From the NCBI GenBank assembly GCA_016182795.1, contig JACPFW010000025.1, forward strand, positions 1-64,000: 64,000 nucleotides of DNA, written 5' to 3'. This DNA comes from Gemmatimonadota bacterium (lineage in GTDB: Bacteria > Gemmatimonadota > Gemmatimonadetes > Gemmatimonadales > Gemmatimonadaceae). The first letter of the stretch is position 1; each line of letters starts with the position of its first letter. The notes beneath the pieces are model-generated. The model saw nothing but the letters and a program-made list of their open reading frames with translations, searched no databases and had not been told where the DNA came from. Both the position numbers and the translations under genes were made by a program. Below are positions 21,603-50,283 of the stretch, piece after piece.

Positions 21603-23129
21603 GTGAAAGACCTCGACGCCGTCCTGTCGGCCTTCCGCGAGGCCACCGGCTGCCCGGCGTCGGTGTGGGCGCAGCCGACGCCCGACGAGCCGTTGCAGAT
21701 CGAGGGCGGCGATCCGGGCGATTCGCCGGCACCGGCCACCGAGCAGCTCCCCGCCGCCGGCACGCGCGAAGTCACGACCGATGCCGGGCGCCAGATTGTC
21801 GCGCGCGTGCCCGGCGCGCGCGCGGCGTGGCTGTGCGTGGGGCCCTCGCGCGATGAGCGCGCCGCTGCGCTCGGCCTAAAGCTCCTGCTGCCCGTGGCGT
21901 CGCAGGTGCTGCGCTCTCAACTCGAAGTCAGCCACGCGGCCAACGACCTGGCCGAACAAGACGCGGCCACGACGATTCTCAACGAGATTTCCGAAACCGT
22001 CGGCGCGCGCCGCGGCGCGATCTACGTGATCGACCGCACCGTTGGCATGCTGCGCGCCGTCGCAACGCTTGGCACGTCGACGCCGCTCGCCGACATCGCG
22101 GCCGACGACGCGGTGTCGGTGACGGCGCGCGTCTTCCGCACGCACCACGCGCTGACGGTGGCCGAGGGGGCCATGCAGTCGGAGGTGGAGGCGCCGATTC
22201 GGCGCGGCGCGATGCTCAGCGTGCCGATCATGTGGGCCACCCCGCAGGGCGGCGTGCCGCTGGGCGTGGTCAACCTGTCGGGGCGCCGCGGCGGCCAGCC
22301 GTTCACGGCCAGCGACCAGAAGCTGGTGGCGGCCATCGCCACGCAGGTGGGAACGACGATTCAGAACACGCGCCTCGTGCGCGCGTCCACCGAGCAGGCC
22401 GAGCTCACGCGCGAGATGGCGCTGGCGCACGACCTGCAGATGAAGCTGCTGCCGCCGCCGCAGTCGCTGGCCCCGGCGGCCGACTGCGCGGCGCGCGTGG
22501 CGCCGGCGGAGAGCGTGGGCGGCGACTTCTACAATCTGTTCCTGCTCGGCGATGGCAAGGTGGGCGTGCTCATTGGCGATGTGTCGAGTCACGGGTATCG
22601 GTCGGCGCTGATCATGGCGCTGGTGATGAGCGCCACCGCCATTCACGCGCGCGGCTCGAGCGATCCGGCGGCAACGATCGGCGCGCTGCTCACATCGCTG
22701 GCCGACGAGCTGCGCGAGACGGAGATGTTCATGACCGTCTGCTACGCGGTGATCGACACGCGCGCCGGAACGCTGACGTGGTGCAACGCCGGGCATCCGC
22801 ACGCGTTCGTGGTGCATACCGACGGCACGTCGACGCGCCTCGCGGCCACCGATCCGCCGCTCGGCCTCGTGGACGAGGCGCCGCACGCGGCATCGCGGCC
22901 GTGGAGCGCGAGCGACCTGCTGGTGCTGTTCACCGACGGCATCAGCGATGCGCGCGGCGCGCAGAAGAAGCGGCTAGGCGAGAGCGCGGTGCTCGAGGTC
23001 GTCACCGCGCGCCGCGCCGAAGCGGCGTGGCGCATCGTGGACGGCGTATTCGCGCTGCTCGAGGGGCATATGGGCGCGCTGCCGCCGCGGGATGATCAGG
23101 CGCTGGTCGTGCTGCGCACGACCCAATGA
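21603..23129 (+). CDS. GAF-domain PP2C/SpoIIE serine phosphatase (RsbU type)
   Basis: 508 residues. An N-terminal region of unknown fold (1-110) leads to a GAF sensory domain (about 115-265; I-L-N-E-I-S-E-T-V and V-P-L-G-V-V-N-L-S-G). A linker helix A-L-A-H-D-L-Q-M-K-L-L-P-P-P precedes the SpoIIE/PP2C domain (about 290-508) with metal-binding acids in S-V-G-G-D-F-Y-N-L and V-L-I-G-D-V-S-S-H-G, then N-A-G-H-P-H and L-F-T-D-G-I-S-D-A. It should dephosphorylate the STAS protein encoded two genes upstream in response to whatever the GAF domain senses. The GTG start at 21603 follows the kinase by 10 bases; the stop overlaps rsmA (ATGA). Confidence 0.9.
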   Translation: MKDLDAVLSAFREATGCPASVWAQPTPDEPLQIEGGDPGDSPAPATEQLPAAGTREVTTDAGRQIVARVPGARAAWLCVGPSRDERAAALGLKLLLPVASQVLRSQLEVSHAANDLAEQDAATTILNEISETVGARRGAIYVIDRTVGMLRAVATLGTSTPLADIAADDAVSVTARVFRTHHALTVAEGAMQSEVEAPIRRGAMLSVPIMWATPQGGVPLGVVNLSGRRGGQPFTASDQKLVAAIATQVGTTIQNTRLVRASTEQAELTREMALAHDLQMKLLPPPQSLAPAADCAARVAPAESVGGDFYNLFLLGDGKVGVLIGDVSSHGYRSALIMALVMSATAIHARGSSDPAATIGALLTSLADELRETEMFMTVCYAVIDTRAGTLTWCNAGHPHAFVVHTDGTSTRLAATDPPLGLVDEAPHAASRPWSASDLLVLFTDGISDARGAQKKRLGESAVLEVVTARRAEAAWRIVDGVFALLEGHMGALPPRDDQALVVLRTTQ

Positions 23130-23935
23130 GCTCCTATCCGCCCCCGCGCAAGCGACTCGGCCAACATTTCCTGACCGACCCGCGCATCCTCGGCCGCATC
23201 GTCGACGCGCTGGCGCCGGCGGCCGACGAGACGGTCGTGGAGATCGGGCCGGGGCGGGGGGCGCTCACCGACGTGCTGCTGCAGCGCGCAGGGCGGGTGA
23301 TCGCCATTGAGATCGACCGCGACCTCGCGCCGCGGCTGCGCGAGCGGTATGCGGACGATGCCCGGCTGACGGTCATCGAAAGCGACGTGCTGAAGGTCGA
23401 CTTTGGCGCGCTGACCGGCGGGCCATACGTGGTGGCCGGCAACGTACCGTACAACATCACCACGCCGATCCTCTTTCACGCCCTGCGCGTGCCGCGGCCG
23501 CTGCGCGCGGTGTACCTGGTGCAGCGCGAAGTGGCCGAGCGCGTAGTGGCGCCACCGGCCAGCGAATCATACGGCGCGCTGTCAGTGAATGTGCAGGCGG
23601 TGGCGCACGCCGAACTCGTTTTTCGCGTGCCGGCGGGGGCGTTCCAGCCGCCGCCCAAGGTGGAGAGTGCCGTGCTGCGCATCACGCCGCGCGGCGACGC
23701 GGTGATTGTCGCCGGCGAGGAAGAGGCGTATCGCGCGCTGGTGCAGGCGTCATTCGGCCTGCGGCGCAAGCAGCTGCGGCGCGTCGTGCGCACCGTGTGC
23801 AGTCTCGATGTGGAAGCGGCCGACCGCGTGGTGGCGGCGGCGGGGCTGGATCCCGAGGCGCGCCCCGAGGTGCTCACGCCCGACGATTTTGCGCGTCTGC
23901 TGCGCGCACGCCGGCATTGGCGACGTGACACCTGA
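23126..23935 (+). CDS. rsmA: 16S rRNA (adenine1518-N6/adenine1519-N6)-dimethyltransferase
   Basis: 269 residues, the standard KsgA length. The start P-P-R-K-R-L-G-Q-H-F-L-T-D is typical. SAM-binding motifs are V-E-I-G-P-G-R-G-A-L-T, A-I-E-I-D-R-D-L and the catalytic N-V-P-Y-N-I-T near residue 107. It dimethylates two adjacent adenines in 16S rRNA late in 30S assembly. The ATG overlaps the phosphatase stop by 4 bases, so it is probably the last gene of the partner-switch operon. Confidence 0.95.
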   Translation: MSSYPPPRKRLGQHFLTDPRILGRIVDALAPAADETVVEIGPGRGALTDVLLQRAGRVIAIEIDRDLAPRLRERYADDARLTVIESDVLKVDFGALTGGPYVVAGNVPYNITTPILFHALRVPRPLRAVYLVQREVAERVVAPPASESYGALSVNVQAVAHAELVFRVPAGAFQPPPKVESAVLRITPRGDAVIVAGEEEAYRALVQASFGLRRKQLRRVVRTVCSLDVEAADRVVAAAGLDPEARPEVLTPDDFARLLRARRHWRRDT

Positions 23936-24000
23936 CAGCTGCTGAGAGAAACTGACGGACGGCGGCGCAAGTGGGCGGAGGCTCGCAAGCTACGAGGCGC

Positions 24001-24059
24001 CGCGCTGATCAAAGCGGAACCATGCCTCGTTCGTCGGGGTTCAGGGCTTGATCAGCGCG
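24001..24059. repeat. 12-bp perfect inverted repeat at the convergent rsmA/lipoprotein junction
   Basis: CGCGCTGATCAA (24001-24012) is perfectly complementary to TTGATCAGCGCG (24048-24059), separated by 35 bases. The right arm is inside the 3' end of the minus-strand lipoprotein gene and encodes its last residues. No T-tract follows on either strand. Confidence 0.7.
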
Positions 24060-25972
24060 GCCCAGGTTCGTAACGCATCCGTCGCCCCATACTGGCCGTG
24101 CACCCAAGTGCCGGACGTCGCCGGGTCCAAATCCAGCGACAGGAAATCGGCGAAACGGTTTCGACCGCTAGAATCCAGAGCGAGATTCGGGGAGCTGCCT
24201 GCCTTCACCATGATCCACGGGCCCATCACGCCGGGAGCATCTGTGGCGCGGTGAACGGATGCGTGTATGGACGGGTAGCTCGTCTCGCTCGTCGTGTTGA
24301 ACGCGAGCACGGCGTTCCCTGAAGGGTCTACGGTGATGGCTGGGTGAAATGTCCAAACGCCGTCGGCGCCGACCAATCCCTGCTGCACCACCCTCGGAGT
24401 TCCTGGCCATCCGCTCACGTCCAACTCGGCCCATTTGATGGCAGTCACCGTGCCAGCGGCGAACCGCTGTCCCCAAGTTTGCGCCACCCAAAGTCGCCCG
24501 TTCCGGAAAACCGGACTCCTCGCCAGCGAACTCGCTCCTCCCACGTCCATCGCAATAGTGCTCGATGCCTGCGGTGCGTAACGAGGGAAATCACAGGTGC
24601 CGTCAAGCGGCACCACCTGCGTCGTGACACTCGGCGTTCCCGCCCCCGTCGTGACCCCCCAGACCGTGACGCCGCACACTGCCGACGGCGCACGGCCGAC
24701 GAAGAAGTGAACGGGCGCCGTGTCGAACATATGCGCGGGCATGAGGCCGGGTGCTACGTCCACGTTGTTCGGAAACGCGAGGTCGGTCCACGTGGTCGGC
24801 GCCCTGCCCGCCACTATCGACGCCTTGTCGAGAATGCGAATAATCGCGCCCATAGGCGCGCCGTCGGATTCGCGGTAACGGCGTGAGGTCACGATCAACG
24901 CGTCGGGGCTGGTCGCCAACACATCGAAGTCTGCCCAGATCGTAGTGAGGATCGGTGGATTCGTCGATCGCTCGACGTAGCGATCAATGGCGAAGAGATG
25001 CCAATCCGTCGGCAGAAGTGATCCCGGGGTGGCGGACTTCGACACAGCGATCATGTTGTGGCCGACACACGTGCCGGCCAGACAGGTTTGCGGATGGATC
25101 TTCGCGGCCTCAGCAACAAAGAAGCGACCAGTCGCGTCGTCATAGACAGCCGCAACATCGCCGGCACTGCTCTCGCCAGCGACCATGGCCGGCAGGAAGA
25201 ACTCGTGCAGCGGCTTCCGTGTGATTACCAGTCCGGCCTTCGACGCGATCACGACTTCCGCATTGCTGATGAAGACGATGCGATCCTGGCCCACAGCAAG
25301 CGCGGGATCGGAGGCGAGATAGTTCACGGATGCCGTGGTCACGGGAAACGCCGTTCCTTCGGCTCCCGCGGTCGGAAGCGTCACCGTGATGGCCGCGGTC
25401 GCGCTGCGACCCTCAGAAGCGACCGTGACGGAGACGAGCCCTTCCGCCACCGCTGTCACCAGCCCCTCACTCGACACCCGCGCCTTCGCCGAGTCGGAAG
25501 ACGTCCACGTCACCGCTCGGTCGCTCAGCCGTGATCCACTGGCGTCGAAGAGCGATGCGGAAAGCTGCTGGGTCTGACCGACGAGAACGCTGGCCGTTGC
25601 TGGCGTCACGGTAACGGCCGCGACGGGAATGAGACTAACGGTCAGCGTTGCCTGCCCCGTCTTGCCTGCCGTGGCAGCGCTGATCGTTGTTTGGCCCGAG
25701 GCGAGTGCGATGATCGCGCCGTCCCCAGAGATGGTCGCAACGTTGGTGGCGGACGAAGTCCAAATGACGGGTCCTAACGTGATCGCCCCGCCGTGTTGAT
25801 CGTATCCGCGGGCCGTGGCGAACGTCGACTGACCTACCTGGATATTCGTCGACGAGAGTGAGACGGCGACTGTCGTCAGCACGAACGAGGGTGCCGACGC
25901 TTTCTCACTGGCGCCGCCGCACGACAGCACGAGCCCGAGTGCCACAACCTGCAGAATGTGCGACTTCGGCAC
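24041..25972 (-). CDS. Secreted lipoprotein with Ig-like group 2 (Big_2) domains
   Basis: 643 residues. The GTG at 25972 starts a lipoprotein signal peptide with lipobox L-V-L-S-C-G-G. Two Big_2-like domains follow (residues about 35-115 and 120-200), each with the pattern V-x-V-T/S-x2-x-A/S-x-x-x-V-G-Q-T and W-T-S-S-x2-x-x-A-T/R-V-S. The remaining 400 residues form a beta-rich region with several Cys and many Trp/Phe and no family I recognise; it may be a beta-propeller. Big_2 domains are common in surface adhesins and large secreted proteins. The frame is open further upstream to 26101, but the lipobox and a CGGAG ribosome-binding site favour 25972. Codon use is less GC-rich than in the neighbouring housekeeping genes. 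Confidence 0.72.
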   Translation of the reverse strand: MPKSHILQVVALGLVLSCGGASEKASAPSFVLTTVAVSLSSTNIQVGQSTFATARGYDQHGGAITLGPVIWTSSATNVATISGDGAIIALASGQTTISAATAGKTGQATLTVSLIPVAAVTVTPATASVLVGQTQQLSASLFDASGSRLSDRAVTWTSSDSAKARVSSEGLVTAVAEGLVSVTVASEGRSATAAITVTLPTAGAEGTAFPVTTASVNYLASDPALAVGQDRIVFISNAEVVIASKAGLVITRKPLHEFFLPAMVAGESSAGDVAAVYDDATGRFFVAEAAKIHPQTCLAGTCVGHNMIAVSKSATPGSLLPTDWHLFAIDRYVERSTNPPILTTIWADFDVLATSPDALIVTSRRYRESDGAPMGAIIRILDKASIVAGRAPTTWTDLAFPNNVDVAPGLMPAHMFDTAPVHFFVGRAPSAVCGVTVWGVTTGAGTPSVTTQVVPLDGTCDFPRYAPQASSTIAMDVGGASSLARSPVFRNGRLWVAQTWGQRFAAGTVTAIKWAELDVSGWPGTPRVVQQGLVGADGVWTFHPAITVDPSGNAVLAFNTTSETSYPSIHASVHRATDAPGVMGPWIMVKAGSSPNLALDSSGRNRFADFLSLDLDPATSGTWVHGQYGATDALRTWAALIKP

Positions 25973-26151: not shown

Positions 26152-26814
26152 TCAGCGGTTGGTCAGCGCGAACGAGAGCACTTCGAGTTCCATCGCCAGG
26201 TCCATGCGACGCACGGTGACGCCAGCCGGCACGGTGAGCGGCGCCGTGGAGAAATCGAGGAGCGCGTGCACGCCGGCCTGCGCAAGACGCGTGGCGATTG
26301 ACTGCGCCGCCGCGGGCGGGAGCGCGAGCACGGCGATATCGGCGCGCAGGCGCTGTACGTCGGCCTCAAGATGGCACACGTCAGCGATCGTGACGCCGGC
26401 GAGTGTCTGCCCGATGCGGCGCGGATCGAGGTCGAAGATGCCAACGACGTGAAAGCCGCGGTCGCGAAAGCCCGGGAACTGCGCGATCGCCGAGCCCATG
26501 CGCCCGGCGCCGACGACCACGAGGCGCCACGTGCGGTCGAGGCCGAGGATCTGGCGAATGTGGGCGACGAGGTCGTGCGTGCCGTAGCCAAGCCCGCGTT
26601 TGCCAAATGATCCGAACGACGAGAGGTCTTTTCGCACCTGCGCCGGCGTCGTGTGTCCGCTCTGCGCCAGTTCACCGCTGGAGATGGTGGTCCGTCCGGC
26701 GCCTTCGAACTCCTCGAGGAATCGCAGGTAGAGCGAGAGCCGGCGAACGGTGGGATCGGCGATGCGTTTCACGGGGTCAGGGCGCGCGCGCGCGGCGGTG
26801 AAGAGGTGAGGCAC
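26152..26814 (-). CDS. rex: Redox-sensing transcriptional repressor Rex
   Basis: 220 residues. The N-terminal winged helix starts at about residue 15 with V-R-R-L-S-L-Y-L-R-F-L-E and includes T-P-A-Q-V-R-K-D-L-S-S-F-G-S-F-G-K-R-G-L-G-Y. The Rossmann domain begins V-V-V-G-A-G-R-M-G-S-A-I and binds NAD(H). Rex dimers bind DNA when NADH/NAD+ is low and leave it when NADH accumulates, so they report redox state. The ATG at 26814 gives a slightly extended N-terminus; an in-frame GTG 14 codons on is the alternative. A near-perfect Rex operator lies 40 bases upstream of the start (26854-26871), which implies autoregulation. Confidence 0.93.
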   Translation of the reverse strand: MPHLFTAARARPDPVKRIADPTVRRLSLYLRFLEEFEGAGRTTISSGELAQSGHTTPAQVRKDLSSFGSFGKRGLGYGTHDLVAHIRQILGLDRTWRLVVVGAGRMGSAIAQFPGFRDRGFHVVGIFDLDPRRIGQTLAGVTIADVCHLEADVQRLRADIAVLALPPAAAQSIATRLAQAGVHALLDFSTAPLTVPAGVTVRRMDLAMELEVLSFALTNR

Positions 26815-27562: not shown

Positions 27563-27689
27563 CGGAACGGGGAGGGGGGCCGGGACTAAGGGACGGGAAA
27601 TGAGAGGTGGAACGGGCGAGAAGAGCCGTCTTCACCTCGTTCCGCATCCCCTCTCTCGTCCCTTAGTCCCGGCCCTCCTCCCCGTTCCG
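27563..27689. repeat. Palindromic intergenic repeat, copy E (GGCCGGGACT subtype)
   Basis: The left arm CGGAACGGGGAGGGGGGCCG continues GGACTAAGGGACGGGA. The right arm reads GTCCCTTAGTCCCGGCCCTC and finishes CTCCCCGTTCCG. Arms match over about 35 bases, and a second pair of GGAACG-type blocks lies inside. It occupies essentially the whole gap between the exonuclease and the MBL-fold gene. Confidence 0.9.
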
Positions 27690-28611: not shown

Positions 28612-28711
28612 GGGACGAGGGGTGGGATTCGGAACGGGGAGGGTGATCATCTCGTCCCCCTTGACGATTCCCCCTGCTCGTCCCTTCGTCCCGGCCCCCC
28701 TCCCCGTTCCG
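28585..28711. repeat. Palindromic intergenic repeat, copy F, overlapping the MBL-fold gene
   Basis: The left arm CGGAACGAGGAGGGGGGCCG continues GGACTAGGGGACGAGG; the right arm reads GTCCCTTCGTCCCGGCCCCC and finishes CTCCCCGTTCCG. The first 27 bases are in frame with the upstream gene and supply its stop codon. The infC promoter begins 31 bases after the repeat. Confidence 0.9.
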
Positions 28712-50128: not shown

Positions 50129-50140
50129 CTGAAGCAGAAA

Positions 50141-50184
50141 GACAACAGAGAAACAACAGAGAGACAACAGAGAAGCAACAGAAG
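50141..50184. repeat. Four tandem 11-base units after tRNA-Gly
   Basis: The units are GACAACAGAGA, AACAACAGAGA, GACAACAGAGA and AGCAACAGAAG. Just downstream, AAGGGCGGG pairs with CCCGCCCTT (about 50182-50213), and a further tract of short GTATC/GAATCC-like units runs to about 50278, so the whole gap to tRNA-Leu is simple sequence. Confidence 0.85.
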
Positions 50185-50283
50185 GGCGGGGGCCGGGTGG
50201 CTTCCCGCCCTTCGTCCTATCCGTATCATTATCCCGTATCGGTATCGTCTATCCGAATCCGAAATCCGCATTCGTAGTTCTCC

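Follow-up and report, generated by a model that had tools for sequence, protein, structure and literature searches.

Intrinsic terminators that lack a U-tract, termed I-shaped, are described for mycobacteria (PMC12288462). For Bacillus cereus, another study describes a single bidirectional terminator hairpin between two convergent genes (PMC5381666). In Streptomyces griseus, structured RNA 3' ends remaining after Rho-dependent termination are raised as an option for ends that are structured and carry no motif (PMC8914203). Here we analysed a stretch of 64,000 nucleotides from a Gemmatimonadota contig (the window), in which a perfect inverted repeat was found at the meeting point of two convergent genes.

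Like the I-shaped terminators (PMC12288462), the repeat is a hairpin without poly-U that sits close to a gene end, and its genome too is high in GC. The mycobacterial study names a distance of 50 bp from the stop codon (PMC12288462), whereas the stem here begins 64 nt past the ksgA stop and is followed by no T-run. It also differs in its 35-nt loop and in a coding arm that overlaps the lipoprotein gene, and it would be a putative terminator. Whether hairpins of this kind terminate on their own is itself disputed, a 2014 paper in the reference list of that study reportedly holding that a U-tract is required. The bidirectional terminators of B. cereus are similar in that one hairpin lies between the genes of a convergent pair (PMC5381666); unlike them, the repeat has no T-tracts. 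With the structured ends that remain after Rho it would share a stable stem beyond a stop codon, and rho is present in the genome.

The inverted repeat between ksgA and the lipoprotein-like gene

The repeat sits between ksgA, a member of the rRNA adenine dimethylase family on the plus strand (23126..23935; Pfam PF00398, E 4e-58), and a lipoprotein-like gene that converges on it from the minus strand and has a Big_2 domain (24041..25972 with the start given by a simple gene caller; the longest open reading frame extends to 26101). Near the start of the latter gene, LVLSC would, in our reading, be lipobox-like. The first-pass annotation had described a perfect 12-bp inverted repeat at 24001-24059. 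The repeat was confirmed, with arms of 14 bp instead of 12: the left arm (23999-24012, plus strand) is intergenic, and the right arm (24048-24061, minus strand) falls within the lipoprotein reading frame, in agreement with the statement that one arm is coding. The 35 nt between them (24013-24047) include the lipoprotein stop codon (24041-24043), which 4 bases separate from the right arm. Neither strand has a T-run after the repeat (the flanks are CCAGGTTCGT and GCCTCGTAGC), which bears out the earlier remark that a T-tract is missing. A canonical intrinsic terminator has a T-run directly past its stem and a short loop, and the repeat has neither. Our terminator consensus scan considered loops of 3-8 nt only and was thus unable to list a repeat with a loop of 35 nt. 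Rfam at gathering score gave no match at the repeat, two tRNAs being its sole matches in the window.

Base composition predicts 0.00015 such repeats per 145 bp and 0.07 per 64 kb, and just 2 repeats with arms of at least 14 bp were found in 658 kb of coding sequence (0 in a control with the complement not reversed). These figures, together with the location in a convergent gap, a class enriched for such repeats, speak against the explanation that a string of common codons makes up the coding arm, which met its complement by luck 35 nt away and has no function. That explanation draws support from the arm itself, whose sequence, at up to 2 mismatches, matches 7 times in the window where 1.6 would be expected (0/100 shuffles reached 7). 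To our reading the excess fits common codons (GCC GCG CTG ATC), and this would make chance somewhat likelier than the base-composition estimate implies. It is also favoured by the folding values of the wider region, and no orthologous lipoprotein end that might show a conserved stem was found among 178 other genomes.

When folded, the core gave a z of -5.25 for 23999-24061 (0/200 shuffles as low) and of -4.94 for 23985-24075. The signal faded with length: four segments that were longer gave -2.89, -2.19, -1.66 and -1.05. In our survey of gaps the ksgA/lipoprotein gap scored only -1.3. Folding also suggested a possible outer pairing of 23989-23995 with 24068-24074, which was not significant (164/2000 shuffles were equal or better), and the inner part of the repeat did no better than shuffles (1973/2000) under a free-end-gap scoring that we consider flawed. 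A longer palindrome was tried and rejected: the two sides, when aligned with gaps, scored above 999/1000 shuffles, but chiefly through the core. With the low expectation and the core z set against the fading z, the survey value and the over-represented arm, the repeat is probably not a product of chance, yet it does not rank among the strong hairpins of this genome. A functionless coincidence is, in our judgement, somewhat unlikely.

Hairpins at gene ends in the genome and the genus

Gene ends were surveyed in 744 kb (the window and 34 stretches) of the 3.13-Mb assembly, which has 50 contigs and was judged 93% complete. Genes were called with a simple codon-usage caller and perfect inverted repeats were then listed. 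Repeats with arms of at least 12 bp and loops of up to 60 nt occurred at 196 per 100 kb in convergent gaps, 70 in tandem gaps, 11 in divergent gaps and 2.9 in coding sequence. The corresponding control values were 39, a figure inflated by word arrays, and 2.2, 0 and 2.1. Among convergent gaps of 50-300 bp, 18 of 30 contained arms of at least 11 bp and 13 of 30 arms of at least 14 bp. A fold z of -3 or lower was likewise found in 20/30 convergent gaps, compared with 30/147 tandem gaps, 2/49 divergent gaps and 2/79 pieces of coding sequence. Long stems with bulges were present in 63/79 coding pieces as well, so stem length alone is unspecific. In other genomes, the same threshold of z was reached in 3/16 convergent, 9/67 tandem and 3/20 divergent gaps of a congener (G001; 300 kb), a weaker signal, and in 2/5, 11/82 and 0/20, respectively, in a genome of another genus (G022; 400 kb).

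T-rich tails were rare at these stems. At least five T within the 8 bases past the main stem (at least 14 pairs) were seen in 1/21 convergent, 5/95 tandem, 1/33 divergent and 0/63 coding cases, indicating that a hairpin without a T-tract is the usual form at convergent ends here. The first-pass annotation had proposed a Rho-independent barrier of unusual type; a hairpin at a gene end fits, and the word unusual has to be dropped for this genome in view of these counts. What does set the ksgA/lipoprotein gap apart is its coding arm: among the 18 convergent gaps with arms of at least 11 bp, no other has an arm that lies entirely within a coding sequence, and 5/60 intergenic-class repeats with arms of at least 12 bp touch coding sequence at all. 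A rho gene is present in this genome, with a match above the family cut-off on contig C13. A second Rho-like match lies at G000 C40:112930-113997 and scores 430.5 bits, under that cut-off.

In many gene-end hairpins of this genome, short purine-rich words are repeated along the arms, and these hairpins look unusual. Their 5' arms consist of imperfect tandem words (for example ACAACAGAGAG, AGCAGAGAGAA and CGGAACGGGGAGGG), which have inverted matches in the 3' arm. Long word-built hairpins at gene ends were noted in the window at 27563-27689, 28630-28711 and 290-378, and in G000 at C21:156740-156879, C21:168321-168424, C24:50711-50824 and C41:77444-77602. Between two tRNA genes, window positions 50130-50215 hold a GC-rich stem together with words of the ACAACAGAGA type. 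The pattern ACAACAGAGARACAACAGAG, with one mismatch allowed, matched 186 times in this genome; the reversed pattern, used as a control, matched 96 times, a high number because the word is almost mirror-symmetric. The pattern was found in 9/11 genomes of the genus, two of them with a single match, and in 0/49 outside it. A narrow literature search returned nothing on word-built gene-end hairpins.

Strong hairpins also recur at orthologous gene ends within the genus. At the 3' end of gcvP (L208-L218), z was -3.9 or lower in 11/11 of its genomes, although for two the flank folded was shorter than 100 nt. Words of the ACAACAGA kind occurred there in 7/11 and different words in the others, with none evident in G004; the exact core GGTCCGGAGC with its partner stood in 5/11. 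The 3' end of leuS (L219-L229) gave z of -3.8 or lower in 9/11 genomes, the exceptions being G009 (0.2) and G007 (-0.9); here the words differ strongly between genomes, and G004 again has none that are evident. At the ppa end, 5/9 readable loci reached -3 or lower (in one of 10 the flank was too short, and G009 was unmatched).

The 14-bp repeat itself has no repeated word, and the purine fraction of its 5' arm is 0.45 and 0.53, against a mean of 0.68 for convergent long stems. That it belongs to the word-built system is a guess on our part. It could be a bare form of that system, whose hairpins have a GC-rich core that repeated copies of a short purine-rich word extend in register at both ends, the vocabulary varying by gene and species and the hairpin position staying, but we think this rather unlikely. 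Under such a scheme one arm might perhaps, again as a guess, serve as template for the other at the replication fork.

The ksgA/rex junction in relatives and the insertion proposal

We take the minus-strand gene at 26152..26814 to be rex-like from its sequence; in relatives, rex is the gene that ancestrally adjoins ksgA. The comparison covered 59 relatives' loci, each of which has ksgA. In 49/59 rex was present; in 39/59 it was convergent and lay at most 172 bp from the ksgA match, and in 10 it lies on the other strand. The lipoprotein matched a protein at a single locus of the 59 (L097), where it lies on the far side of rex. Since rex lies that close to ksgA in most of these loci and the one match lies beyond rex, the lipoprotein gene is extra here. 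Searches of 178 other genomes of 179 with the C-terminal 400 residues gave 13 matches, all of them weak at 18-30 bits and 23-29% identity, and no orthologous end of the lipoprotein gene was found among them. In L061, a locus of the same genus, about 2 kb separate ksgA from dnaQ with no rex detected between them, and an independent change may have affected this junction.

The first-pass annotation had also considered an insertion footprint. That relatives have no such lipoprotein gene separating ksgA from rex is in keeping with a scar of the event that placed it there. Such a scar should show matching repeats at both edges or further copies, but only one edge carries the repeat, and the edges have no direct or inverted match of at least 10 bp in common, sharing one inverted 9-mer where 0.4 would be expected. 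The annotation had suggested searching for the repeat elsewhere and had itself counted a lack of copies against its idea. No second copy was detected in the genome, other DNA matches being short and partial; the 14-base arm by itself has exactly one further occurrence. An insertion footprint is thus not supported, and we regard it as very unlikely. Each arm contains the 6-bp palindrome TGATCA, as a pair of sites for a DNA-binding protein or recombinase might. However, no similar pair was found elsewhere in the genome, nor an adjoining recombinase or regulator among the neighbouring genes inspected, and a role as such a site pair appears extremely improbable.

Inverted repeats occur now and then at the ksgA/rex junction of relatives. 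In L074, perfect inverted arms of 28 bp enclose a 32-nt loop (L074 5778-5865), and the left arm lies nearly all within the end of ksgA. The GGGGTCAGAGTCG-like sequence of this repeat may resemble repeats seen with transposases. The junction in L060 has 10-bp arms of GGATTGG-like words, and in the remaining 12/14 relatives inspected the arms were 8 bp or shorter.

Proposed role of the hairpin

The 14-bp repeat is, we think, probably an ordinary gene-end hairpin that serves chiefly ksgA, either as a terminator without T or as a guard of the 3' end after Rho. The enrichment at convergent ends, the core z of -5.25, the presence of rho and the 28-bp repeat of L074 argue for this role. Against it stand the coding arm, the survey z of -1.3, the codon-like arm sequence and the low purine content of the 5' arm, as well as the 12/14 relatives with arms of 8 bp or less at ksgA/rex and the 3/16 convergent gaps at z -3 in G001.

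On the plus-strand ksgA transcript, both arms would lie in the RNA 3' of the stop codon, which should leave the 14-bp stem free to form. The stem could then release RNA polymerase without a U-tract, in the manner of an I-shaped terminator, or it could block 3' exonucleases once Rho has ended transcription farther downstream. On the minus-strand lipoprotein transcript, the 5' arm would lie just ahead of the stop codon and be covered by the terminating ribosome, which makes a role of the hairpin there less sure. From this cover of the 5' arm we infer that any effect on RNA ends would fall mainly on the ksgA transcript.

By itself the 14-bp repeat is a minor finding, which adds a further T-less hairpin to the convergent ends of a high-GC genome. 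In a limited literature search we found nothing on how this genus ends its RNAs. The repeat was a useful pointer because its follow-up revealed many strong hairpins without T-tails at convergent ends, and part of those hairpins are word-built and are kept at orthologous gene ends while their vocabulary changes.
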